Source of the DNA: Candidatus Saccharimonadota bacterium
GTDB lineage: Bacteria; Patescibacteriota; Saccharimonadia; Saccharimonadales; Saccharimonadaceae
NCBI GenBank assembly: GCA_027311865.1
Contig: DAICYC010000005.1
Location: forward strand, 11,176 to 45,157
Direction of reading: 5' to 3'
Length of the DNA: 33,982 nt
The notes under the pieces were generated by a model. It saw nothing but the letters and a program-made list of their open reading frames with translations. It did no database searches and was not told where the DNA came from. The translations under genes and the position numbers were made by a program. Shown piece by piece: positions 15,134-18,036 of the stretch (positions are counted from its first letter, which is position 1; each line of letters opens with the position of its first letter).

Positions 15134-16279
15134 ATGTTCGCCGAACGGCTTTTTTATGATGAGAAAACGGAGAAATTTAGTCTCTGTACGCCTGAGATGA
15201 TTGAAATCGCTAGGTCAGTCCCCCGCGGCCGACCTGATACCTATGGGGCAACCCCACTCAACCACCAGCTCGTTAGTCAGCAGCAGCTAGAGTTATTAAA
15301 AGGCTTTGCTGAATTGGTTGAGACTGATATTCCACCCTCAACTCCTGAGCATATCGCTAATTACATGAAACTGATCGTTCCGTCTCGATTTGTTAATCGA
15401 GGCGTTGCTAACCATGAAAATTACGCGACAGCTCCCGTCAGACCAGAGGCCTACGCGAACAATGATTCGATGCTAGAGATCATGACCCGAGCAGAAACTG
15501 GTCACGCTTCGCCGGCTGAACTGCTGATTACTCGTCAGGCCCTCGGTATTAGAAGCGTGGAGCTAGCCTGCGTTACTCACCCGTACGGTAAACATCTAGA
15601 TATACGAGATGAAATGAAGCGATCGGTTAAAGAATCAATCGAGTCGATGGGCGGAGAGTACTATCGTCACCCCGAGTCGAAATTCTTCGTCAAGGGTTTT
15701 GTTGATCTACGCCATCCAATGGTTGATGACGACTTGACGCCAGCGTCGAAAAAGACGATCTCTCCTGAAGAGCATATTGCGGCCCACTTTGCCAAAGTTA
15801 TTGACAAGCCACTAGAGATTGCCGAACCCGACTATAGCCAAGGTTTGCTAATTACTCGTCAATCAACTATCGGTGAGATGGTCGACGGCACTACGGTTCG
15901 TGAGCGAACATCATTCATTTTGCGAACAGATGATGACTCGATTGTTCCACCCGAGTCGCTTGAAGCAATTTGTCAGCTCGATCGACATAGTCCGACATGG
16001 AAGCAGGACGCTGTCACGGCTGGTCGTCTCGATGAGTACGCCAAGCGCCTGTGGGAAGTAAAGGAATATTCACTATTAATTCCTATCTCAACCACAGTCT
16101 ATGCTTTTAATATGGATTCAACAAAGTATATCCAAGCCAAACAGGCTAATGACGAGTATCAGCAACGCCTAAGCGAAGCCAAAGCTATTCGCGACAACTT
16201 CCCCAACCTATTTAGTCGCTTAGTGGAGGATCCTAATCACTGGCTGTCGACATTAGACGACGAGCTTAGTGAACGTTAG
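15134..16279 (+). CDS. Hypothetical protein, no recognised family
   Basis: 381-aa ORF beginning 9 nt after a TATAAT box (15119-15124); strongly coding-like composition. Confidence 0.8.
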   Translation: MFAERLFYDEKTEKFSLCTPEMIEIARSVPRGRPDTYGATPLNHQLVSQQQLELLKGFAELVETDIPPSTPEHIANYMKLIVPSRFVNRGVANHENYATAPVRPEAYANNDSMLEIMTRAETGHASPAELLITRQALGIRSVELACVTHPYGKHLDIRDEMKRSVKESIESMGGEYYRHPESKFFVKGFVDLRHPMVDDDLTPASKKTISPEEHIAAHFAKVIDKPLEIAEPDYSQGLLITRQSTIGEMVDGTTVRERTSFILRTDDDSIVPPESLEAICQLDRHSPTWKQDAVTAGRLDEYAKRLWEVKEYSLLIPISTTVYAFNMDSTKYIQAKQANDEYQQRLSEAKAIRDNFPNLFSRLVEDPNHWLSTLDDELSER

Positions 16280-16871
16280 GCTGATCGAGCATGGCGTCGA
16301 GTAGTGGTTTAACATGTTGACGAATATCGGCCTGAATTGATTCGACGCTTCGCATCCAGCCGGTTTCACTATCAATCCCATCAATAATTCTAAATTCGTC
16401 CGGATAGGTTTCAGCCAGCAAATTGTATGTGTCATAAGTTCGGCGTAGGTGTTCGGTGTCGGCCTCGTGAATATCGCGTTGCTGATTGGTATATTCGCGA
16501 GCCGCTTTTTTGTCGACATTACGCTGGGCTGTCTCCGGATCGATCATGATAATGAGGTTCAAATCAGGTTTGGGCACGCCCATTACTTCGTGCTCGAAAT
16601 GACGCTGAAATTCAAAGAAATCTAGTCGCTCAGCCTGACTGTCGAGTTTCGATCCGTTGTGCCCCAGGTTGGAAGCCGTAAAACGATCAGCTAAAACGAC
16701 ACCTGATTCAAGTTTGAGTGTGTTTCGAATGGCCGTCGAGGCCATCATACGATCAAAGGAATAAGCCAGTGAAATGAGTTCAGGGTGAACATCGGTGCCA
16801 TACTCACCTCTCAAGAAGCGTTGAATGTGGTGACTGGTTTCATGATCGTACCTCGGAAAGCGCTCCGCCAA
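16266..16871 (-). pseudogene. Thymidylate kinase-like ORF lacking the N-terminal P-loop
   Basis: ERFPRYDHETSHHIQRFLRGEYG, VVLADRFTASNLGHNGSK and LID-like region match TMK. The expected GxDGxGKxTQ P-loop is absent; the only canonical start in frame is TTG at 16871. Confidence 0.75.
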
Positions 16872-16932
16872 AACAGTGTAGCCCTCGTCGGTCAGATATT
16901 TCTCCGTGATTGTAGCAATCCCTAAATAAAAT

Positions 16933-16972
16933 AGCCACCTGTTACTCGTAAACTAACGAGTAACAGGTGGCT
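16933..16972 (-). terminator. Strong hairpin terminator of thyX
   Basis: Perfect 17-bp stem AGCCACCTGTTACTCGT / ACGAGTAACAGGTGGCT, 6-nt loop, followed on minus strand by ATTTTATTT. Confidence 0.85.
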
Positions 16973-16986
16973 GGTGGATGAGAGGC

Positions 16987-18036
16987 TTAGCGTACGACGA
17001 CGGTGCCAGTCTGGCGCTCAATGTGACGTCGCTGGGACACCCAACCGCGGTAGTTGGCTGACTTTTCGAGAGACTGCTGGATGTCACTGATGATGTCATC
17101 ATCGATGGTGAACAGCATGTCTCGAGCGGTGGCGTCGAGAATCAAGTTCTGACGAGCTTGCCATTCGGCCAAACTCATTGGTTTGGCCTGATGCTCAAAG
17201 GGCGACCAGTGCCCCGATTGACGCAGCTTGTCGTAGCGACGACGATCCTTTTCAGGATCCTTTCGATCCTGACGAAGATAGCTCACGGCAGCACAGCGCG
17301 AAGTCGAAGCCATCAACCGTTCTTCGATGGTCGGAAACTCGTCATCTTCGACATACGGTGTGTGCCAATCGTTCGCCGTACGGTACCTTGGTGTTGATTC
17401 GGCATACACCTGACGCATCATTCGAGCGATGGTGGCAATTTCGCCTTGTGCGTCGGCATGATCGCGCAATTTGAAGAAGTTGGTCAGCTCGGTTGCCGTG
17501 ATGATGACCGTCTGCCAGGAGTACGTCTCCAGGTGGCGACCAGCCAACTGTTTGTGAACATTCAGCCGTGTGTCGGTCGGATCGATTGATTCGGTCGATT
17601 TGGGTATGGTTTGCTTGAGTTCATCGAGCTTACCGAGAATAGTTGAATGATCGACGTATTCCCGACTAGGGTTGTAGCCAAACAGCTTGGCGGATTCCTT
17701 AGTGCCGATCAGCAATTCGATGACGGTCGTTGCAGCTCGTCCGAGTCCGGCCAGCCAACGCTCAACCGCTTCGTCGTGTCGGAGTCCAGCCAGATGGCTG
17801 AAAGCCTGCATGCCGGGCTGGTTTACGCCGAACTTCTCCGGTATAAATGGCTCCCGAAGAACGTTTTCGAGCAGGGTTGTCGTCATGATTGCTCGAGTGC
17901 TAGCCGAATTTCGTGAGAAATCACGGTGAGTATTGAGCTCCGCCAGAATGATCCGTGGCATAGTCGCTTCGAAGGTGGTGATTCGAAAGTCTTCCATGCT
18001 GATTGAATCGGCGATGATCTGGGCCTTGAAAGCCAT
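16987..18036 (-). CDS. thyX: ThyX-like FAD-dependent thymidylate synthase (phage-type variant)
   Basis: LNTHRDFSRNSASTRAI corresponds to the ThyX RHRxxSxNxxSxR motif; LMASTSRCAAVSYLRQDR and GHWSPFEHQAKPM fit ThyX C-terminal motifs. Confidence 0.82.
   Translation of the reverse strand: MAFKAQIIADSISMEDFRITTFEATMPRIILAELNTHRDFSRNSASTRAIMTTTLLENVLREPFIPEKFGVNQPGMQAFSHLAGLRHDEAVERWLAGLGRAATTVIELLIGTKESAKLFGYNPSREYVDHSTILGKLDELKQTIPKSTESIDPTDTRLNVHKQLAGRHLETYSWQTVIITATELTNFFKLRDHADAQGEIATIARMMRQVYAESTPRYRTANDWHTPYVEDDEFPTIEERLMASTSRCAAVSYLRQDRKDPEKDRRRYDKLRQSGHWSPFEHQAKPMSLAEWQARQNLILDATARDMLFTIDDDIISDIQQSLEKSANYRGWVSQRRHIERQTGTVVVR

Follow-up and report, generated by a model that had tools for sequence, protein, structure and literature searches.

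The only gene for a dTMP kinase (tmk) in this Saccharimonadaceae assembly lacks its start codon and its P-loop, and it was probably decapitated by a recent deletion, which would make it a broken gene and not a new kind of enzyme. The window, i.e., the whole stretch of 33,982 nucleotides that was analysed, belongs to a genome (G000) assembled to 639 kb in 29 contigs at 92% completeness. Within the window, a reverse-strand open reading frame (ORF) at 16266-16871, in a frame that stays open up to 16952, encodes the body of a dTMP kinase. The features of the locus are the following:

16987..18036, minus strand: thyX-like gene for an FAD-dependent thymidylate synthase, intact, 349 aa (PF02511, E=1.1e-11)
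16933..16972, minus strand: intrinsic terminator of thyX, with a 17-bp stem and a 6-nt loop, then TATTTTATTT
16908..16917, minus strand: extended -10 promoter element TGCTACAATC, which would have served the missing dcd-tmk operon
16901..16908, minus strand: putative deletion junction (approximate), joining the promoter to about codon 24 of tmk
16266..16900, minus strand: tmk remnant, the body of a type-A dTMP kinase without start codon and P-loop (PF02223, 30.5 bits)
15134..16279, plus strand: orf381, convergent and of no known family, at the same place in congeners whether tmk is present or not

The thyX product matches the thymidylate synthases of PHROG 85 (E=4.6e-55) and is nearest, among the loci fetched, to that of congener G001 (48% identity, 352 aligned positions). 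On the other side, the end of orf381 overlaps that of tmk by 14 bp. No match to orf381 was found in Pfam, NCBIfam, PHROG or PDB; its family is fast-evolving (about 320-380 aa) with conserved stretches G.ASPAEL, THPYG, ERSSF, and P.STT, and lies convergent to dcd or tmk in the window and in loci L044, L037, L032, L035, L041, L046, L045, L036, L158, and L159, tmk-less loci included.

The sequence-only reading of this DNA had described a tmk-like ORF with ERFPRYDH, a further motif, and a LID-like region, and all of these were confirmed. The ORF contains ERFPRYDH and DRFTASNLGHNGSK as well as the LID-like KKAAREYTNQQRDIHE; FPRYDH and DRFTASNLGHNG represent the FPRY and DRxxxSN motifs, and KKAAREYTNQQRD the basic LID region, in which one lysine that is invariant in the aligned relatives is replaced by Q. 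The P-loop GxDGxGKxT was not found at the N-terminus of the remnant and, as already reported for the nearby frames, is absent from the DNA between thyX and the tmk ORF in all three minus-strand frames. Profile matches reflect the same truncation: the PF02223 score passes the curated cut-off of 27 but covers only positions 16-174 of 185, the NCBIfam PRK07933 match begins at profile position 21 of 213, and the NCBIfam dTMP kinase equivalogs remain below their cut-offs (82.8 vs 193 and 34.6 vs 83.25). Position-by-position scoring against 69 distinct relatives places the onset of TMK likeness at about KYLTDEGYTV, corresponding to residue 9-10 after the P-loop, with positive scores from KYL onward and negative scores at the first post-P-loop positions, where the nearly invariant T-Q is unmatched. 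TMK structures of the Mycobacterium tuberculosis type, e.g., 1g3u, rank among the clade profile's best PDB matches. The P-loop strand and loop are needed by P-loop kinases to bind the phosphates of ATP, and the remnant as assembled would not be expected to display dTMP kinase activity, its P-loop being gone.

Relatives were surveyed for the P-loop in two overlapping sets, consisting of 67 relatives fetched from the same family and genus and the 80 best named records. It was present in all 67 of the former (an automatic pattern recognised 60 and inspection by eye the other 7; variants include EDGDGSGKGT and EGASDGIGKT) and in all 80 of the latter. The remnant itself has neither an ATG nor a GTG start, nor a convincing ribosome site; its first in-frame ATG, GTG, or TTG codon is the TTG at 16871, which together with an in-frame CTG located 6 nt after a GGAG provides the best, putative, start candidates. 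These candidate starts, the conserved body, and the position of the ORF close behind a promoter element would suit a P-loop-less relative of dTMP kinase that was kept for another function, e.g., as a dTMP-binding or regulatory protein or as partner of another nucleotide kinase. Nevertheless, a new P-loop-less enzyme is very unlikely, because the remnant should not bind the phosphates of ATP and has no ATG or GTG start. Neither survey set contains a P-loop-less relative, no second, catalytic tmk was found of which the remnant could be the paralogue, and the open frame runs at first through promoter DNA. Moreover, without the P-loop strand and loop, the core of the fold would be left open. The earlier suggestion that a P-loop-less paralogue had been retained is thus not supported. 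Expression of the remnant from the kept promoter in a genuine role, e.g., dTMP binding in a lineage that keeps thymidylate synthase without dTMP kinase, is if anything still less probable.

The search for a second, intact tmk, proposed in the sequence-only reading, yielded none in the G000 assembly, where the remnant is the sole PF02223 match; a second copy could reside in the unassembled part of the genome. When the N-terminal 139 residues of a relative were used as query, the only match in the assembly was at the remnant, beginning after the P-loop. A split tmk or relocated N-terminus was therefore rejected, as no separate N-terminal or P-loop fragment was found in the assembly; a second copy of the thyX hairpin, considered as recombination partner, was rejected likewise, the hairpin occurring once in the genome. 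These results leave hardly any room for the idea that an inversion or translocation at the hairpin carried the 5' part of tmk elsewhere, from where recombination could bring it back: there is a strong inverted repeat near the break, but the break lies about 25-30 nt beyond it, and neither a second hairpin nor a detached fragment is available. The gene for dCTP deaminase (dcd) occurs neither at the locus nor elsewhere in the assembly, fragments included, and the only PF22769 match is a dUTPase of 151 aa. Salvage through thymidine kinase was also considered and discarded; no convincing PF00265 gene was found in the assembly (a sub-cut-off match lies within a 366-aa ORF), and this route would be no answer because tmk would still not be bypassed.

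Gene order in relatives specifies what is missing. The genus comparison set comprised 17 members including the genome of the window, i.e., 16 congeners, and this type of tmk was matched by sequence in seven of the 17, again counting the window's own. In the neighbourhood comparison suggested earlier, intact tmk orthologues, mostly behind dcd, occupy the same place in congeners (G005, G006, G004, G003, G014, and G015). The nearest are those of G005 and G006, both 48% identical to the remnant, with proteins that begin MGxFIxxEGGDGSGKxTQ. The usual order is thyX or thyA, terminator, extended -10 promoter, dcd, and tmk, with dcd upstream of tmk on the same strand in 55 of the 67 relatives, nearly always abutting, and with the tmk start at or near the dcd stop codon in most. 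The tmk ATG and the dcd stop codon overlap in G006; this genome and G004, G003, G014, and G015 share the arrangement of dcd, tmk at or near its stop, and convergent orf381, mostly with thyX or thyA before dcd. Full-length dcd was found in 14 of the 16 congeners; G005, whose tmk is the nearest in sequence, is likewise without it. In G002, G010, and G016 a dcd-like ORF of 320-357 aa has roughly 60 additional N-terminal residues ahead of the deaminase part (L042, 4191-5153; L045, 3155-4228; L047, 5187-6185).

The sequence between thyX and the remnant was examined against this background. The thyX terminator folds with -38 kcal/mol over a 101-nt stretch (z = -6.2; none of 200 shuffles was equally stable), and the in-frame TAG stop previously noted inside the 17-bp hairpin indeed sits within its loop. 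The remnant had been placed directly against this terminator, which proved incorrect: the first TMK-like residue lies about 30 nt past the hairpin, and the intervening DNA holds a T-rich tract and TGCTACAATC. Because this stretch consists of the terminator tract and an extended -10 element, the in-frame FYLGIATITE is probably non-coding DNA read by chance. A hairpin-like inverted repeat is found at the same position in congeners, and the order thyX, hairpin-like repeat, and TGnTACAAT some 30-75 nt before dcd recurs in several of them; TGnTACAAT lies upstream of dcd in G006, G001, G008, G011, G009, and others. Over the whole window, TGNTANAAT occurs eight times where 4.2 would be expected; the motif by itself is therefore no proof of a promoter, and its position is the argument. 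Apart from the one at the tmk locus, most sites lie shortly upstream of gene starts, and this class of motif seems to be a genuine promoter type of the organism. The sites at 1235, 7852, 9330, 15116, and 19227 of the window are located about 8-70 nt upstream of gene starts, which suggests that this is a common promoter form here, often with very short leaders.

From the -10 element to the first TMK-like residue the distance is about 6 nt in the window and 761 nt in G006, where dcd lies in between. Missing as one contiguous block are dcd, the tmk start, and the P-loop, together about 0.76 kb by the G006 layout. A genome-wide DNA search showed junction and hairpin to be single-copy, with matches restricted to the sequence itself, its own hairpin arm, and trivial stretches of 14-19 nt, so that no long repeat is available for a simple assembly misjoin.

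The age of the loss was assessed from invariant sites in a leave-one-out count, as the nearest tmk (48% identical) is too distant for dN/dS. The remnant has changed at 2 of 46 invariant sites, and intact relatives, each left out in turn, at 2-7 of about 50; in addition, its approximately 210 codons hold no stop or frameshift. The window copy shows no excess of changes, in agreement with the earlier argument that the intact body speaks against old decay. A body as conserved as that of intact relatives implies that the loss is either very recent or an assembly error, and tmk appears to have been under full constraint until very recently, or may still be so in the real genome.

A recent deletion is the reading that best accommodates what is observed: pieces of the locus are missing, their surroundings are conserved, the assembly contains no other copies, and the body has not decayed. 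A single deletion, with one end just beyond the -10 box of the dcd-tmk operon and the other at about tmk codon 24, would have removed the leader, the ribosome site, probably the whole of dcd, the tmk start, and the P-loop, so recently that the remaining tmk has not decayed. The proposal of a recent deletion made from the sequence is therefore retained as the best supported of its three alternatives, with two amendments: the breakpoint does not fuse the thyX terminator to tmk but lies past the -10 element of the downstream operon, and the deletion is probably larger than first thought, dcd, which separates thyX and tmk in most relatives, being missing along with the tmk 5' end. One deletion of about 0.76 kb explains both the jump from promoter to tmk and the absence of dcd. 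Alternatively, since G005 is also without dcd, that gene may already have been gone, and the last deletion may have taken only about 0.1 kb; the promoter kept in the window is more like the leaders of dcd than like the tmk leader of G005, and this likeness leans towards the single larger deletion. We infer that the living population does carry the deletion, that it arose in one event, and that dcd was present until then.

Several observations count against a deletion. With thyX intact, dTMP is presumably still made and tmk is needed to use it, and a body free of stops and frameshifts fits an assembly error equally well. The cell might possess an intact dcd-tmk operon, of which a chimeric read, an amplification chimera, or a minor deletion variant was assembled. 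Such an origin, which we consider unlikely but deserving of real weight, is favoured by the undecayed body and the intact thyX, by the predominance of metagenome-assembled genomes (MAGs) among the database genomes of the lineage, and by the small size of the missing segment, which could have dropped out as a short contig; moreover, tmk is usually essential. On the other hand, the single-copy junction makes an ordinary repeat-driven misjoin unlikely, no dcd fragment was found elsewhere in the assembly, and near-complete congeners are also without tmk. A misassembly would in any case not lie at the hairpin itself, as had been envisaged, because the sequence runs on for about 30 nt beyond it, into a promoter element like those at this place in relatives. 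The weights given here to deletion and to artefact or minor variant are judgements, not computed values.

Three congeners of 97-99% completeness (G009, G011, and G012, the last a single contig) yielded no tmk by PF02223 or the clade profile, and tmk loss does therefore occur in the genus. In both G009 and G011, orf381 directly adjoins dcd; in G012 a thyA-like gene is present, and neither dcd nor tmk was found within 8 kb next to rplJ. All three keep thyA or thyX (G009, L064 and L159; G011, L070 and L158; G012, L161). In Parcubacteria, tmk, cmk, and gmk are reported to be poorly represented (PMC4508563), and beyond that report little literature was found on tmk or pseudogenes in Saccharibacteria.

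The history of the locus is mosaic, which also counts against the deletion reading: a ribosomal-protein tree, and likewise a neighbour, group G000 with G016, G008, and G002, which carry another type of tmk at the same place. Two dTMP kinase types, about 20% identical, fill the same slot in different species of the genus (L041, L044, L042, L045, L046, and L047 vs L034, L035, L032, and L033), and the thymidylate synthase gene there, between rplA and rplJ, likewise varies, being a long thyX, a short thyX, or thyA, which points to repeated replacement. Because the ribosomal grouping, the tmk type, and the affinity of thyX (to G001) disagree, exchange and loss of dTTP-pathway genes have probably recurred in the rplA-rplJ interval in this genus.

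If the deletion is real, a tmk loss has been caught in progress in a host-dependent lineage, with thymidylate synthase kept and the next step just broken. The cell would then need dTDP or dTTP from another source, i.e., host-derived nucleotides or another nucleotide kinase, and the three congeners without detectable tmk would likewise have to obtain them some other way, which raises the question how Saccharibacteria with ThyX or ThyA but without Tmk acquire dTTP. If it is an assembly error, the locus cautions against inferring pathway losses from single assemblies.

Compared with dTMP kinases (Tmk; PF02223; PRK07933), the remnant shares FPRY, DR(F/Y)xxSN, the LID region, and the length and order of the body, and like their loci it adjoins a thymidylate synthase gene; it differs in lacking the start, the first strand, the P-loop (EGGDGSGKxTQ in relatives), and the dcd neighbour. 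In comparison with recent 5'-deletion pseudogenes of reduced, host-dependent genomes, the deletion is known here from one assembly and its fixation in the population is putative, but the locus resembles them in what would be one clean deletion, its undecayed ORF, and the absence of the same pathway gene from some relatives.
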